Shown here piece after piece: positions 29,897-36,183 of a stretch of DNA of 64,000 nucleotides. Within the stretch, counting starts at the first letter, position 1; every line of letters starts with the position of its first letter. Source of the stretch: Thermococcus sp. 21S7 (lineage in GTDB: Archaea > Methanobacteriota_B > Thermococci > Thermococcales > Thermococcaceae); assembly GCF_012027615.1 (NCBI RefSeq), contig NZ_SNUT01000002.1:248001-312000 (forward strand), given 5' to 3'. The position numbers were made by a program, and so were the translations under genes. The notes under the pieces are model-generated. The model ran no database searches. It saw nothing but the letters and a program-made list of their open reading frames with translations, and was not told where the DNA came from.

Positions 29897-29985
29897 TCTC
29901 TCACCTGAACCCGGCTGGGAGTTAGGGTTTTTAAAGGTGAGGGAAGGTTTAAATCTTCTTGGGCGGAGTACAAGTTGGTGGGATT

Positions 29986-30180
29986 ATGGAAGATGTTACT
30001 GAAGTTCACATCGTGATTAGGACTTCCCAGAAAAATGCCGAAAGACTCAAGATTGAGCTGGCAATGCTTCAAGGCAGACTAAACGTTGAGGAGGCACTTA
30101 AACGCGCTAAGGGAGTCATGAAGGGAGCAAAGCCGTGGCAGGAGTTGGAGGCAGAGATGTATGATGAGCTTGTTCCTTGA
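29986..30180 (+). CDS. VapB-like antitoxin
   Basis: 64 residues: a beta strand at the N-terminus (TEVHIVIRTSQ) followed by helices and an acidic tail (ELEAEMYDELVP). This layout, a DNA-binding strand plus a toxin-binding tail, is that of antitoxins paired with PIN proteins. ATG 29986 follows GGTGGGATT. The PIN gene starts inside its last seven codons, a 20-base overlap, so translation is coupled. A TATA-like AGGTTTAAATC lies about 35 bases upstream. Confidence 0.65.
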   Translation: MEDVTEVHIVIRTSQKNAERLKIELAMLQGRLNVEEALKRAKGVMKGAKPWQELEAEMYDELVP

Positions 30181-30631
30181 CAGCAACGTGTTTATTGAGC
30201 ACTTCCGGGGAAATCCCAGGGCGAACCAGCTGGTCGAGACGCTGTTCCCAGGGAGTTATTCCCTGTTTATAAATGATGTCGTTTACAATGAGGTTCTTTT
30301 TATGTACCTTAAACACAGAACCGGCAAGGGATACTGGGGCTTGAAAAAGCATCCAGAACTTGTTAAAAGGGTAGGTAACGAGTTTGTGGATTCCATACTG
30401 CCCCTCCTTGCGTTTCCAAAGTTTCTGGACACGACAAATGAGATAATCGTGGAGACACTCACGTTCGTGACCACTTACGGCCTTCTCCCAAGTGGCGCCC
30501 TAATCCTTGCAACCGCGAAATACTACGGTCTTGATGGCATCGTCAGCCTTGACTCCGACCTCCTCCGCGCTGCACCCAAGGAGGGACTGCTCGCCATTTC
30601 GAAGGTGGAAGACTTGGAGGGGAAGGAATGA
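30161..30631 (+). CDS. PIN domain VapC-like protein with a lost catalytic Asp
   Basis: 156 residues. PIN nuclease landmarks are Asp7 in SLFLDSNVF, Glu44 in YNEVLF and SLDSDL near 130-134. The third acidic position, normally Asp in the phrase P-x-D-A-L-I-L-A-T-A, is Gly112 here (PSGALILATA, codon GGC at 30494-30496), a one-base change from GAC. Without it the RNase may be weak or dead. VapC toxins cut tRNA or rRNA. It overlaps its antitoxin gene by 20 bases and surE by 4, so the pair sits at the front of the surE operon. Confidence 0.8.
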   Translation: MMSLFLDSNVFIEHFRGNPRANQLVETLFPGSYSLFINDVVYNEVLFMYLKHRTGKGYWGLKKHPELVKRVGNEFVDSILPLLAFPKFLDTTNEIIVETLTFVTTYGLLPSGALILATAKYYGLDGIVSLDSDLLRAAPKEGLLAISKVEDLEGKE

Positions 30632-31509: not shown

Positions 31510-32009
31510 ATGGTGACCCCCTTGAAGAAGTGGATGGCTGGGGTATTTGCGGCCGTTTTTGCAGTTTTGGTTTTGAGCAGCCTCACTGGGGCTTTGAGCA
31601 TAATCCAGCCGAAGGGCAACGCTGGCTCCATGATGCCGGCTGAAGCCATGCTTGTTGCCCAGAGACACCTGCAGTGGGCATCTTCAAACCTGCCAGGATT
31701 TGAAGACTGGAAGAACGCAAAGCTCTCCCAGCCTGTAGTGTACTACTTCCCCAACGGGACAAAGAGTGCCTATGAGTTGAAGGTAAGCCCGATGGTTTTG
31801 TACTGGCTGCAACGCAGAGGCACGTCTCCCCTACTCTTGAGTTTGGGAAAGGGGAGACGCCGGGCGGGAGGCTGATTGTTTCAGCTGGATAGTGGCAATC
31901 TTCGTGTCTTGCCCCCGCATTTTCTCGGGGAAAAGGGGTGGATGTTGATATTTGGGTCTCTTTCGTTAAGTCTCTTTGCGGTTTATCTTGCGGTGAAATG
32001 GCTGAGATG
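31510..32009 (+). pseudogene. Broken copy of the C39-like secreted peptidase
   Basis: The first roughly 90 codons match the start of the intact gene at 32130 (MVTPLKKW start, signal peptide, RHLQWASSN-PGFEDWK, YYFPNGTKSAYE). At about 31783 thirteen bases present in the intact copy (after the ggt of its acggt) are missing and the frame shifts. After the shift the homology goes on in another frame (KPDGFVLAATQRHVS, then LEFGKGETP) until about 31872. A stop soon follows, and a run reading FLGEKGWMLIFGSLSLSLFA to TGA at 32009 looks like the tail of an unrelated membrane protein. The frame-shifted product would be 121 residues and lack the catalytic Cys and His. Confidence 0.8.
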
Positions 32010-32129
32010 ATAACGACCTCGCTGCACTGTGCATACCATGACAAAAACGAAATCTGCCTTGTGTCGGATAACTAAATGTTTAACATTCATATTTGCGTAA
32101 AAGTTATAACTGACAAGAATAATATATCA

Positions 32130-33470
32130 ATGGTGACCCCCTTGAAGAAGTGGGAAACCGGAGCGTTTGTAGTTTTTTTCGCGGTTTTGATATTGAGTAG
32201 TTTCGCAGGAGCTTTAAGTTTGGTTCCCCCGAAGGGCCACGACGGTCCCGTGACGCCAACTGAAGCCATGTCTGTCGCTCAGAGACACCTGCAGTGGGCA
32301 TCATCAAATATTCCTGGATTCGAGGATTGGAAGAGGGCAAAGCTTTCCCAGCCCGTGGTGTACTACTTCCCTAACGGAACCAAGAGCGCCTACGAGTTTA
32401 CGGTGCTTGTGAATGGAAAGCCCAACGGATTCATACTTGTGGCGGCTCAGAGATACATGCCTCCGGTTCTTGAGTTCAGCAAAGGCGAGGCACCAAGCGA
32501 GAGGCTGGGAAGAATAGGCATGGCTAGATTCAGAGGATTCTCAGTAGAGAAACACAGACTGCTTTATTACGGTGCATTGAGCTATAGCATAGAGCTGGAT
32601 AATGGAAAGGCCATGAACATTTACGGAAAGGTTTCTTCAGTCCCCAAAACTGTCAAACTCTCATTCTCTCCAGAGCATATGGCAGACATATGGAGAGCCC
32701 TTGAGACTTCTTCGGCAGGCGAACCTACGATCGGGATTCTCTCATCAGGAGACATTTATACCAAGATCATACCCAACGTTCCAGTATGGACAGAGGATTC
32801 ATACTTTGGAGACCCTGGAAATGGATATATTAGCTATCCAAACAATGTCGGGCCAAGCGCTGACCCCTGGGACGCATGGGACGGGTGCACTCCCATTGCC
32901 GCGGCCCAGATTATAGCGTATTATGAGCATCCGGAAATCTATGAAAACGGTTATTACACTCAGGAATACAAGGAGTACATGACGTCTTTGGTTGATATCC
33001 TTCACCATACCATGGGAACGTTTGATAAGGAGAATGATCCCGGACAGACGTACGTGTGTGGTTGGCCTGGTTCCGACGCATGCGACGGCATTGAAGCCTT
33101 TGCAGACGAATATCAGAAACTAAAAGAGAAAGGAATAGTTTCATGGTCTCTCGTCCACAGCTACGATGCACAGCCTACTTGTACATTGGGATTGTGCTGG
33201 GTACATGGCTACATAAATACAGGTGATGTAATTAGTGAAGTTGACAACAACCGTCCTATCCTCCTTCAACTTCACAATGGCGGAAGCGCGGTGGGCAGAC
33301 AACAATCATATAATAACCATAGTGTTGTCATAGTTGGATACGTTGGGAACAGCCGCACCATAGACTATCTGGTGATTCATGATGGATGGGACATGTACGA
33401 GCATTATCTGGCGTGGGGGAACTGGGAGTCTGGAACGCACCTCGTGAAGATAGTCCCCAAGAGGAGGTGA
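32130..33470 (+). CDS. Secreted C39-like cysteine peptidase
   Basis: 446 residues. A signal peptide (VFFAVLILSSFAGALS, cut near residue 32) is followed by a propeptide-like stretch and a papain-like domain. Cys253 in WDGCTPIAAAQIIAYYEHPE-type sequence, His397 in NNHSVVIVGYVG and the following IHDGWD segment look like a Cys/His/Asp catalytic set as in C39-like peptidases. ATG 32130 is used; the frame runs to 32076 but the pseudogene copy also begins at this point. The TATA box AAGTTATAAC at about 32101-32110 leaves almost no leader. Five genes for small membrane or secreted proteins follow on the same strand. Confidence 0.8.
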   Translation: MVTPLKKWETGAFVVFFAVLILSSFAGALSLVPPKGHDGPVTPTEAMSVAQRHLQWASSNIPGFEDWKRAKLSQPVVYYFPNGTKSAYEFTVLVNGKPNGFILVAAQRYMPPVLEFSKGEAPSERLGRIGMARFRGFSVEKHRLLYYGALSYSIELDNGKAMNIYGKVSSVPKTVKLSFSPEHMADIWRALETSSAGEPTIGILSSGDIYTKIIPNVPVWTEDSYFGDPGNGYISYPNNVGPSADPWDAWDGCTPIAAAQIIAYYEHPEIYENGYYTQEYKEYMTSLVDILHHTMGTFDKENDPGQTYVCGWPGSDACDGIEAFADEYQKLKEKGIVSWSLVHSYDAQPTCTLGLCWVHGYINTGDVISEVDNNRPILLQLHNGGSAVGRQQSYNNHSVVIVGYVGNSRTIDYLVIHDGWDMYEHYLAWGNWESGTHLVKIVPKRR

Positions 33471-33474
33471 GTTT

Positions 33475-33936
33475 GTGAACCGTAGGGAATTCATTCTCTA
33501 TGCTCTTTCCATTATTTTTGCAACAGTTTGGGAGCTTGTACTCGCCTATAACGGTCGAGCTATCATTGAATATTATGTTGATTGGGTAGTTGTATCGGAG
33601 AGTCCTCCCATTTCTTGGAGCAAATACTCTCCTTCGCTGGAGTTTGTTCTTCTCGTTTTACTCCCTGCGCTTGTCCTATTCGGCTTGTACCTTTGGTTCA
33701 GGGAGTCTGCCCTAAAGAAGTCAGCACTCTCAATAAGCTTGCCTATTCTGTCAGTGATTATTGCGTGTTTTAAAACTACGGGACCGGGTGTTTTATTGGT
33801 TCTGATTGTTGTCTCGGCTGTGGTTGGTGGGGTAGTTGGGAAAGACAAGTGGGAAAAAGCAATACTTGGCATTGCAGGCTTCCTATCAGGGTTTATGGTG
33901 GCGATGATAATAATGGGCGGACTCTCCGCCCGGTGA
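33475..33936 (+). CDS. Small membrane protein, island family member 1
   Basis: 153 residues with about four hydrophobic segments: an N-terminal one containing TVWELVLAYN near 16, a short outside loop with SWSKYSPSLEFVLLVLLPAL near 45, a membrane segment ending in a short KKSALS stretch, then two more segments ending GFLSGFMVAMIIMGG. No known family recognised. It starts at GTG 33475 five bases after the peptidase stop, with GAGGAGGTGAG as ribosome site, so it is in the peptidase operon. Tandem duplicate of the next gene. Confidence 0.72.
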   Translation: MNRREFILYALSIIFATVWELVLAYNGRAIIEYYVDWVVVSESPPISWSKYSPSLEFVLLVLLPALVLFGLYLWFRESALKKSALSISLPILSVIIACFKTTGPGVLLVLIVVSAVVGGVVGKDKWEKAILGIAGFLSGFMVAMIIMGGLSAR

Positions 33937-33956
33937 TGTTGAGTGGGGGTGTTTTT

Positions 33957-34448
33957 ATGAATCGTAGGGAATTCATTCTACATGTTCTTTCTATTATTTT
34001 TGCAACAGTTTGGGAGCTTGTACTTGCCTATAATAGTCGGGCCATCAGTGAGTATTATGTTGAGAAAGGCACAATTTTTTTTGAGAACTGGACGGGTGGG
34101 ACAGGGGGACCCTGTGTTTCTTGGAGCAAATACTCCCCCTCCTTGGAGTTTGTTCTTTTAGTCCTTCTCCCTACACTCGTCCTTCTCATCTTATACCTCT
34201 GGTTTAAGGAGCCCACCCTAAAGAAATCAGCACTTTCAATAGGGTTGCCTGTTTTGTCAGTGATTGTTATCTATTTTAAAACTACAGGACCGGGTGTTTT
34301 ATTGGCTCTGATTGTAGTGTCGGCTGTGGTCGGTGGGGTAGTTGGGAAAGACAAGTGGGAAAAAGTGCTACTCAGTATTGCGGGCTTTCTACCAGGCCTT
34401 ATAATAGGAATGATAATAGCGGCTGAACTCACAGCTGTATGGTGTTAA
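33957..34448 (+). CDS. Small membrane protein, island family member 2
   Basis: 163 residues, nearly identical in layout to the preceding gene: MNRREFILHVLSIIFATVWE, then a longer outside loop (FENWTGGTGGPCVSWSK) with one Cys, then SPSLEFVLLVLLPTLVLLI and two more hydrophobic segments. The start ATG 33957 follows GGGGGTG; a longer frame upstream overlaps the previous gene and is not used. The outside loop is the most variable part between the copies, which might reflect partner binding. Confidence 0.72.
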   Translation: MNRREFILHVLSIIFATVWELVLAYNSRAISEYYVEKGTIFFENWTGGTGGPCVSWSKYSPSLEFVLLVLLPTLVLLILYLWFKEPTLKKSALSIGLPVLSVIVIYFKTTGPGVLLALIVVSAVVGGVVGKDKWEKVLLSIAGFLPGLIIGMIIAAELTAVWC

Positions 34449-34466
34449 TAAGTGGTGAGTGAACCC

Positions 34467-34937
34467 ATGAAGCTCCGCTCGCTCCTCTATCTTTTCCTCT
34501 TCCCTGCATGGGAGTTCCTGCTCATGATTTTACTCCCTTCGGAATACTACGTTGGGGCTTCTTGCCTTCAGACTCATCCCTATCCAATCTGCGGCTTTCA
34601 CTTTAGCCCATCGGCAACTTTTGTCCTCCTCGTGACGGCACCGTTCTTAATCTCAATTATCCTTGGCCTCTGGAAGGAATGGAGTGAACTCGTAGCATTT
34701 GGGATCCCTTCGCTCGCTGTTGTCTTGGTAACGCTTCTTCTCCTGTACCTCTTCGAAAAGTCATGGATTTCTTTTTTCGTGCCTGTAATAGTCTCGGTGG
34801 TTCTGTATAGCCTCCCATGTATAAGACTGGACGGCCCTATAAAAAGAGCGGAAAGGCTGGTATGGATAGCCACGTCACTCATAGTCTCGTTTATCCTCTG
34901 CATTATGGTGTGGAGTGGCATATCAATAATGGTATGA
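34467..34937 (+). CDS. Small membrane protein, island family member 3 (divergent)
   Basis: 156 residues. It shares the layout of the previous two: PAWEFLLMILLPSEYY near 14, then FHFSPSATFVLLVTAPFLIS near 45 and two later hydrophobic segments, but few identical residues otherwise. The outside loop has two Cys (SCLQTHPYPICGF). ATG 34467 follows GGTGAG; the GTG at 34452 is part of the leader. It may belong to the same operon as the peptidase. Confidence 0.68.
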   Translation: MKLRSLLYLFLFPAWEFLLMILLPSEYYVGASCLQTHPYPICGFHFSPSATFVLLVTAPFLISIILGLWKEWSELVAFGIPSLAVVLVTLLLLYLFEKSWISFFVPVIVSVVLYSLPCIRLDGPIKRAERLVWIATSLIVSFILCIMVWSGISIMV

Positions 34938-34987
34938 AAAATTTTATAACAAAGGATGTCGTATTTACTGCAGATGGAGGGGGCTTA

Positions 34988-35719
34988 ATGAGGAAATCCC
35001 ACATTGTCTTCCTGTTGTTGGTTGTCACATTGGCATTGATTGCCGCGAAAGTCTCTCAACATCCAGAAAAAAGTCAGTGTTTCTCGACGGTGCCGGTGAA
35101 CGTCAGCGATGTTAAGCCACCAATCGTCAGCGGGCCGGGCTTTCCTCCCCAAGCAGGATTCCAGGGTATAACACTCGACGAGGTTGTAAACGGAAGTCCG
35201 AGGCACGTGCTCGTCGGGTTTTTTGGCTTTGAAAACGTGTCATGGTCCCTTGAAAAGCCATCCTGCTATTTTAAATCCCTGGAAGGCGTTTCCGAGAACT
35301 GGACTGGTATCGTCCTACCGGGGGCCTTTCTCTCAAACGTAACCCTCTCGGAAAGAGTTTATCTGGCCGTTTATGTGTATCCTTTGGAGGGAACAGCAAT
35401 AGTATCTGAGGTGGACTACGGAGAAACGCCAGAGAAGTCAAAGATAACCGAAGCATTTCGGCTCAAGTACACGGAGCATCCCAACGAGATTGTGGAAGCC
35501 TACGTCTCTAAGCTTGAGCACTCGGGCTATACTGCAATCAGGGAGCTTTCCGGCGGTCTTTTCAAGGGTTGGGTGCTCAGGAAGGGAAATAATTACCTGC
35601 TCGTGCTTAAGGTTAGGGACAAGGGCAACCTGTACCTGCTCCTTGCCAGTGGTAATGAGAGGGACATCAAAAAACTCACCGACGTCCTTCCTTTGAGTGG
35701 GAGTGGTGAGTCTCAGTGA
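34988..35719 (+). CDS. Secreted protein, unknown
   Basis: 243 residues. A signal peptide or anchor (IVFLLLVVTLALIAAKVS, residues 6-23) is followed by an outside domain with alternating beta strands, two Cys in the first 100 residues and several Asn-X-Ser/Thr sites. No family recognised. ATG 34988 follows GGAGGGGG. A TATA-like TTTTATAAC lies about 45 bases upstream, so it may start a second transcript. Its stop overlaps the start of the next gene by four bases (GTGA). Confidence 0.68.
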   Translation: MRKSHIVFLLLVVTLALIAAKVSQHPEKSQCFSTVPVNVSDVKPPIVSGPGFPPQAGFQGITLDEVVNGSPRHVLVGFFGFENVSWSLEKPSCYFKSLEGVSENWTGIVLPGAFLSNVTLSERVYLAVYVYPLEGTAIVSEVDYGETPEKSKITEAFRLKYTEHPNEIVEAYVSKLEHSGYTAIRELSGGLFKGWVLRKGNNYLLVLKVRDKGNLYLLLASGNERDIKKLTDVLPLSGSGESQ

Positions 35720-36183
35720 GATTTCCAAAACATTTTCCCCACTTTCTCACTCTCACCTCGGCAACGGCATGGGAGCTCCTTCTCCTCTACAACATGACTT
35801 GGCTAAGGAGCTACTACATCGAAAGCGGGAGGGTTTACGTTCGGGACGGAATTCCCGCCTGCTGGTTCAGGTATTCGCCCTCTCTCCCCTTCGTCCTCCT
35901 CGTTCTCCTTCCGGCGATTGTTCTCCCTGCCCTTTACGTTCGCTTCAAAGAACCCCTCCTGAGGAAATCGGGCCTCGCTATTGGATTACCCGTCCTGTCA
36001 GTGGTTCTCGTCTCCCTCCGAAATCCCAAGGGTTCCTTCTCGGTCCTGCTCGCCATTTCGGTCGGCGTTGGTGTCATACTGGGAGAGGGCAGAGAAGAAA
36101 AGGCATTGCTCTTCCTCGAAGGCTTTTTGCCGGGATTTATCGTGTTTATGATAATACTCGGCGGGCTCGCGGTCAGTTGCTGA
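35716..36183 (+). CDS. Small membrane protein, island family member 4
   Basis: 155 residues, same family as 33475-34448: SATAWELLLLYN near 14, CWFRYSPSLPFVLLVLLPAI near 49, a KEPLLRKSGLAIGLPVLSVV segment near 78, and GFLPGFIVFMIILGGLA near the end. It begins at GTG 35716 inside the stop region of the previous gene. The conserved YSPSLxFVLLVLLP and LPVLSVV phrases define the family. Base composition is closer to the host average than in the tandem pair. Confidence 0.72.
   Translation: MRFPKHFPHFLTLTSATAWELLLLYNMTWLRSYYIESGRVYVRDGIPACWFRYSPSLPFVLLVLLPAIVLPALYVRFKEPLLRKSGLAIGLPVLSVVLVSLRNPKGSFSVLLAISVGVGVILGEGREEKALLFLEGFLPGFIVFMIILGGLAVSC

Follow-up and report, generated by a model that had tools for sequence, protein, structure and literature searches.

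Why would an archaeon keep four genes for small membrane proteins, and one for a membrane-anchored secreted protein, behind a single gene for a secreted peptidase? This island lies in a 64,000-nucleotide stretch of the genome of Thermococcus sp. 21S7 (positions 248,001 to 312,000 of contig NZ_SNUT01000002.1), which we call the window. We propose, with a probability of about 0.5, that a polymorphic peptidase/partner system is arrayed here on the chromosome, and that the partner protects the producer from the peptidase. A preliminary description of the window had guessed at either peptide maturation or antagonism with immunity. The second guess is favored by partners that are specific to peptidase type, by peptidase remnants in front of orphan partners, by catalytic halves that are exchangeable behind a common N-terminal half, and by selection on the orphans. 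We reject peptide maturation as the main explanation because neither a precursor peptide nor an ATP-binding cassette (ABC) exporter is seen in the island.

In the window's own genome (G000; 2.37 Mb in 48 contigs), the island is flanked by surE (PF01975) and by a gene for a signal recognition particle (SRP)-type GTPase, which we take from its motifs to be FtsY-like. All of the island's genes are on the + strand, in this order:

31510..31874, + strand: 5' remnant of another, frameshifted peptidase gene, of which only the signal peptide and propeptide are left; found as tblastn pieces in two frames
32130..33470, + strand: secreted papain-like cysteine peptidase of type 1, 446 amino acids (aa), with signal peptide, Spi-like propeptide, and catalytic domain (PF13529; Cys253, His397)
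32173..32179, + strand: poly-T tract (T7) in the signal-peptide codons V-F-F of this peptidase; in frame here, and out of frame in several relatives
33475..33936, + strand: membrane partner 1, separated by 4 nt from the peptidase stop and proposed as the immunity protein for this cognate type-1 peptidase
33957..34448, + strand: membrane partner 2, of the same subclade, an orphan immunity candidate; in L138, a remnant of a peptidase C-terminus lies directly 5' of its relative
34467..34937, + strand: membrane partner 3, of a diverged subclade, an orphan here; its counterpart in G044 is directly behind a peptidase
34988..35719, + strand: membrane-anchored secreted protein, an orphan here and elsewhere the partner of type-2 peptidases (profile match to F12, 97.3%)
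35716..36183, + strand: membrane partner 4, an orphan immunity candidate; remnants precede members of a broader MEM4-like group

This inventory agrees with what was first described: small membrane proteins are present at 33475, 33957, 34467, and 35716, as is the secreted protein at 34988, which has a single N-terminal hydrophobic segment. The broken second peptidase gene in front was recovered as residues 3-101 at 74% identity and residues 95-129 in another frame. The island is also more AT-rich than its flanks, as had been noted (G+C is 0.45-0.48 at about 32.0-35.5 kb and 0.51-0.60 in most flanking intervals).

The type of partner follows the type of peptidase

Our comparison set was 115 genomes of the phylum, from which we fetched 67 regions; peptidase pieces in G040, G057, G084, and G014, and some partner places without a locus, lie outside these regions. 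The link between the peptidase and the membrane family, which the preliminary description proposed from the window, recurs in many genomes. The regions contain 30 long peptidase genes (at least 330 aa), and in 27 of them, the next open reading frame (ORF) encodes a partner: a membrane protein in 6 cases, a member of the 34988 family in 4, and members of the families that we label F43, F31/F61, and F12 in 1, 3, and 13 cases. The count is 29/30 if we include L114, where a 75-aa ORF lies between the peptidase and the F12 gene, and L129, where a frameshift splits off the peptidase tail ahead of the F61 gene. Type 1 is followed by a membrane protein in 6/6 cases, each time with a gap of 4 nt; type 2 is followed by the 34988 family for all four long peptidases; and type 3 is followed by F43 (1/1).

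Types 1 and 2 are alike in one half of the protein and not in the other. In the N-terminal half (residues 45-180), they are 74-84% identical to each other, versus 72-88% within types. In the catalytic half, the identity between types 1 and 2 drops to 41-46%, versus 72-88% within types. The contrast is less clear for type 3 (62-68% for the N-terminal half and 40-52% for the catalytic half). Three peptidases from other genera, with F31/F61 partners, again differ between the halves (79-83% for the N-terminal half and 53-54% for the catalytic half).

Within type 1, the distance between catalytic domains is correlated with the distance between partners (r = 0.64, P = 0.0016, Mantel test, six complete pairs). 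For the N-terminal half, r was -0.40 across the same six pairs. With ten pairs, including remnants, the correlation for the catalytic domain was similar (r = 0.60, P = 0.0019).

Remnants in front of orphan partners

We examined 70 copies or fragments of membrane genes with a readable start, using a profile of the C-terminus of the type-1 peptidase. This C-terminus is present directly 5' of 19 membrane genes (20 rows, with one place in L141 represented twice). Of these peptidases, six are open, two are broken, and eleven are truncated. In the truncated cases, 22 to about 165 C-terminal residues are left, at a near-constant spacing to the membrane gene. As a control, 27 of 764 other genes in the regions matched the profile, and all 27 are partner genes or ORFs behind peptidases or their fragments.

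Relatives of the window's orphans are among the genes with a peptidase C-terminus in front, namely those of membrane partner 3 (in L102, L106, and L121) and members of the broader MEM4-like group (in L101, L095, L127, and L128). The F12 family has remnants as well (L161, L165, L174, and L185). The remnant-bearing membrane genes are spread over several subclades: the membrane tree requires 13 label changes, and 119 of 500 label shuffles required 13 or fewer.

Across genomes, 27 of the 48 with either partner family have no peptidase match that covers at least 370 of 412 profile positions, a tally in which draft contigs may hide some peptidases. Among the 23 genomes with such a peptidase, 21 have a partner according to our searches, and the other two have an adjacent F31 gene. 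Orphan partners are under purifying selection. For three pairs of orphan membrane genes, the ratio of nonsynonymous to synonymous rates (dN/dS) was 0.24, 0.21, and 0.28; the third of these pairs comes from two genomes, G043 and G064, in which no peptidase was found.

A hot spot between surE and the SRP-GTPase gene

The membrane family is found in 37/115 genomes and the peptidase in 37/115 by single sequence or 39/115 by profile. The 34988 protein is found in 16/115 genomes by single sequence, and its wider family in 36/115. Because surE and the SRP-GTPase gene flank 23 of the 39 loci with the membrane family (window included), and a further nine fit this site (one flank and a contig end, or the neighbor of surE as the flank), we consider it a hot spot. 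Two of the 39 loci have none of these flanks.

L152, from another genus (G094), has a type-1 peptidase that is about 76% identical to the window's and has membrane partners, in another genomic context, which suggests transfer between genera. Upstream of surE, the window has a pair of genes (29959-30631) that we presume to be VapB-like and PIN-domain-like. In several relatives, a different pair of small genes (f24/f29) replaces it; this flank too seems to exchange modules.

Two families of partners

Most partners belong to one superfamily of membrane-anchored proteins, because profile comparison joins the 34988 protein to F12 (97.3%), F31 to F61 (96.4%), the merged sets to each other (91.3%), and F31/F61 to F43 (83.1%), where control families reach at most 7.1%. 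By the same comparison, the window's membrane proteins are a second partner superfamily whose kinship to the first is unsupported (at most 3.3%). We also considered that F31 might be a fusion of a membrane protein and a 34988 domain, which profile comparison does not support (3.3%).

The four membrane proteins had been described as one family. This family is real: members 1, 2, and 4 are 45-75% identical, and member 3, although just 27% identical to member 1, was recovered by the family model. Other parts of that description need revision. That members 1 and 2 are recent tandem copies is not supported: their synonymous divergence (dS) is 0.57, and member 2 is 91% identical to a gene from G044 versus 77% to member 1. 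Instead of the four hydrophobic segments that were described, members 1-3 have five, and member 4 has four at the same threshold. The outside loops were said to differ the most, as expected for immunity proteins. Because entropy ranges overlap between the loops presumed to face outward (1.2-2.6) and the inner ones (2.3-2.4), this argument for immunity is not borne out; among the loop features, only the length of loop 1 stands out.

It had also been raised that the membrane proteins might belong to a known and unrelated family. They match no Pfam, NCBIfam, or PADLOC family above the cut-off, which also leaves them outside the Spi and staphostatin inhibitors; PADLOC was run on five island proteins, including three of the four membrane proteins, and matched 0/5. 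A search of plasmids with membrane protein 2 gave no match. For the 34988/F12 alignment, no Pfam family, Inhibitor_I69 included, matched any of the 16 members at E ≤ 0.05, and a comparison of the profile to solved structures gave nothing below E = 0.5. When the 34988 protein was modeled, at low confidence, its C-terminal part came out in the order beta-alpha-beta4-alpha and gave weak matches of the Mog1/PsbP/DcrB kind (VIA Z of 7.2 at best, Foldseek E = 1.2e-3); at this confidence, they may reflect a common arrangement only.

A few partners are arranged in other ways. In L092 (6952-8532) and L188, a 526-aa protein behind the peptidase has two tandem partner domains. In L139 (5097-6675), a diverged peptidase is followed by an unrelated, hydrophobic-rich protein of 105 aa, which is possibly a third kind of partner. 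The window's genome also contains a second orphan member of the 34988/F12 family, on another contig (C4, 36031-36894; L159 and L160), with no peptidase piece found in the 11 kb that we fetched there.

The peptidase

The window's peptidase was described as secreted, with Cys253 and His397 as its key residues, and this holds. It starts at the ATG at 32130 with a signal-peptide-like segment, and both residues (positions 256 and 400 in alignment numbering) are invariant in 22/22 aligned relatives. It matches PF13529 (C39_2) at 24.5 bits, where the curated cut-off is 24, and 19/22 relatives match this family at E ≤ 0.01. PF01640 (C10) is below the cut-off in the window's peptidase and matches 6/22 relatives. 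The propeptide matches the Spi inhibitor family PF13734, at a score below threshold. Compared to solved structures, the peptidase profile matched only papain-like cathepsin S (E = 0.006). Judging by its closest profile matches, this is a secreted C39_2/C10-like enzyme with a Spi-like propeptide.

According to Pfam, the window's peptidase has none of the fused ABC transporter or membrane domains of the C39 bacteriocin exporters. It also has no CdiA/Rhs repeats, WXG domain, or adaptors of the type VI secretion system; Pfam shows peptidase and propeptide families only. It has no immunoglobulin (Ig)-like Pfam domain either, and no relatives of it were found among viral contigs.

A homopolymer in the signal peptide

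The window's poly-T tract (T7, in Val-Phe-Phe codons) is in frame, as it is in L135 and L138 (both T8) and in L095 (T6). It is out of frame in L093 (T7), L109 (T9), L119 (T7), and L127 (T9). In these four genes, the start codon and the charged region are in another frame, with a stop after 18-20 codons, and the rest of the gene is open. The peptidases that are paired with F12 have a poly-G tract at the corresponding place, which is in frame in L111, L114, L117, L120, L123, L140, and L151 (G6-G8) and out of frame in L094 (G8) and in L148 and L149 (G9). Overall, 7/18 tract-bearing genes are out of frame at the tract, versus 0/12 of the others (P = 0.024, Fisher's exact test, with kinship ignored). 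No run of at least 7 occurs in the 12 kb of type 1-3 gene bodies, and 14 occur in 304 kb of flanking coding DNA. In eight in-frame genes, GGG makes up 11/15 of the glycine codons in the G tract versus 52/246 elsewhere.

This pattern is as a contingency locus predicts, and the tract is a candidate switch for phase-variable secretion. Sequencing error, transcriptional slippage, or recoding are possible alternatives. In particular, the out-of-frame signal peptides may be assembly errors or come from dead genes, which we think is a realistic possibility even though we lean against it; this would affect the proposed switch only. Homopolymers are typical sites of sequencing errors, and the seven out-of-frame genes could in part be errors. 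However, the frame differs at the tract only, including in three one-contig genomes (G035, G046, and G091) that hold five of the seven genes, and the homopolymer at the corresponding place is of T in one subfamily and of G in another. The gene bodies also remain open and constrained, with dN/dS of 0.09-0.27 in pairs that include out-of-frame genes. In one such pair, the orthologues L148 (G091) and L151 (G092) have a G9 tract that is out of frame and a G7 tract that is in frame, with dS of 0.20 and dN/dS of 0.09. L148 and L149 are two loci of G091 that are identical around the signal peptide, both with G9, and their bodies have diverged to a dS of 1.2, hinting at gene conversion of the putative switch region.

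Poly-A/T tracts close to 5' ends were reported from a survey that covered 99 genomes, including 18 from archaea (PMC2831843). The accessible text of a recent review calls merely for future surveys of slippage-based phase variation in archaea (PMC11868660).

How the island might work

We suggest the following mechanism. A single gene would encode a Sec-secreted, papain-like peptidase with an inhibitory propeptide. Once exported, the peptidase would lose its propeptide and damage surface or membrane proteins of close relatives. The membrane-held partner from the next gene would act at the cell surface, by blocking or by shielding, and so protect the producer and resistant neighbors from one type of peptidase. 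The peptidase gene would be replaced by recombination within the shared N-terminal half; the old peptidase would be lost and its partner would outlast it, initially beside a C-terminal stub and later without one. Cells would thereby accumulate protectors against several types of peptidase, and slippage at the homopolymer might additionally switch secretion on or off. This would explain why four membrane genes and one 34988-type gene are behind one peptidase, because replacement via the N-terminal half leaves the old partners as useful resistance. In short, we infer that the peptidase harms unprotected cells, that the partner neutralizes it, and that the tract switches within a population.

Several points weigh against this proposal. 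Its support comes from gene order and sequence comparison, from which we infer toxicity, inhibition, and binding. Profile comparison does not relate the membrane family to the other superfamily of partners, so a single mode of inhibition is not implied for the two. The structure predictions are poor for both the peptidase (a predicted local distance difference test score, or pLDDT, of 29 from a 3-sequence alignment) and the 34988 protein (pLDDT of 46 from 2 sequences). In L119, the partner of a type-2 peptidase is frameshifted, and the peptidase also has an out-of-frame signal peptide. The samples for the Mantel tests are small, and the distance between SRP-GTPases, a marker of strain relatedness, is also correlated with the distance between partners (r = 0.58, P = 0.0096, eight loci). 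With the SRP-GTPase distance partialled out, the correlation between catalytic domains and partners persists, at r = 0.56 (P = 0.011) for eight pairs and r = 0.74 (P = 0.046) for five pairs.

The main alternative involves no warfare, just self-protection: an extracellular protease with a nutritional role would have a dedicated inhibitor beside it, as for SpeB/Spi, staphopain/staphostatin, and Bfp/Bfi, and orphan inhibitors would be by-products of gene turnover or shields against the digestive proteases of neighbors. The gene order is the same, the propeptide has a weak Spi-like match (PF13734, below the cut-off), and the C10 proteases of Bacteroides are co-transcribed with adjacent inhibitors, for which a location in the periplasm and membranes and a role in protecting the cell were proposed (PMC2873492). 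Self-protection does not by itself predict many orphans under purifying selection in genomes without the peptidase, nor type switching with a shared N-terminal half, nor ordered remnants at one hot spot, and the partners have no match above the cut-off to Inhibitor_I69 or another Pfam family. Because of the orphans, it would probably not be the whole story, and we consider it rather unlikely.

That the peptidase instead matures or releases its partner or another secreted protein, with the partner as substrate or anchor, has a precedent in the extracellular halolysin HlyR4, which acts in haloarchaeal antagonism by cleaving and activating precursor proteins (PMC12893001), but this seems improbable, as no conserved gene for a small precursor is beside the peptidase, unrelated partner families occupy the same place, and orphan partners persist without the peptidase.

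To return to the protective array, a fuller version of it is a widespread conflict system of the Thermococcales with exchangeable toxin peptidases, two unrelated families of immunity proteins that persist as orphans at a hot spot, and phase-variable secretion via poly-T or poly-G. We offer this combination only tentatively.

Comparison with known systems

Like the contact-dependent growth inhibition (CDI) and Rhs polymorphic toxins, the peptidases have a shared N-terminal region, an exchangeable C-terminal effector, and a type-matched gene directly behind (PMC3150448, PMC3482391). At CDI loci, 3' fragments of cdiA with their own immunity genes stand downstream of the complete system (PMC3150448), which is similar to the effector remnants with their own partner gene. 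The toxin domains reported in bacterial polymorphic toxins include papain-like and C39-like ones (PMC3482391). In contrast to those systems, we see a small archaeal Sec-type proprotein and neither a CdiA/Rhs stalk nor a secretion partner; what is exchanged is an entire peptidase domain from a single superfamily, and toxicity is presumed. Because no known delivery parts were found, we do not file this system as CDI or Rhs, only as one that would work alike.

The pairs of C10 proteases and inhibitors (SpeB/Spi, Bfp/Bfi, and staphopain/staphostatin) also combine a secreted papain-like protease with an adjoining protective gene, and the propeptide here is weakly Spi-like (PMC2873492). They differ in that our partners are membrane or membrane-anchored proteins without a Pfam match, and in that we find a hypervariable array with orphans and a homopolymer in the signal peptide.

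Among archaeal systems, VARTIG is specific to the Thermococcales, hypervariable, and recombining, with an effector-like gene followed by genes for membrane proteins and a proposed role in conflict (PMC8416519). However, a large Ig-domain protein is at its center instead of a peptidase, and the main text of that paper uses neither "peptidase" nor "papain." The antagonism by haloarchaeal halolysin also involves an archaeal extracellular protease and inhibition of other archaea, but this is a serine protease that activates precursors, and no adjacent immunity array is described in the accessible text (PMC12893001). A survey of archaeal dark matter linked an archaeal orthologous group (arCOG) of C39 peptidases to pseudomurein-binding domains (PMC4158269).

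The tract resembles the phase-variable contingency loci of bacteria, where a homopolymer near the 5' end of a gene for a surface or secreted protein sets the frame by its length (PMC11868660, PMC2831843). The difference is that ours is archaeal, lies in the signal peptide, and involves two homopolymers at the corresponding place in two subfamilies; it is a candidate switch only. Our literature searches found no description of this peptidase/partner system, although a 2019 review of archaeal polymorphic toxins may mention it.

Implications

How archaea compete with their close relatives is poorly known. If our proposal is correct, then the island would be a compact and genetically testable system in culturable hyperthermophiles, and it would add two new candidate families of membrane-held protease inhibitors. 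The signal-peptide tract would be a candidate for slippage-based phase variation in archaea. The Thermococcales would then have an archaeal contingency locus, as part of a weapon-and-shield system that would be unusual in archaea.

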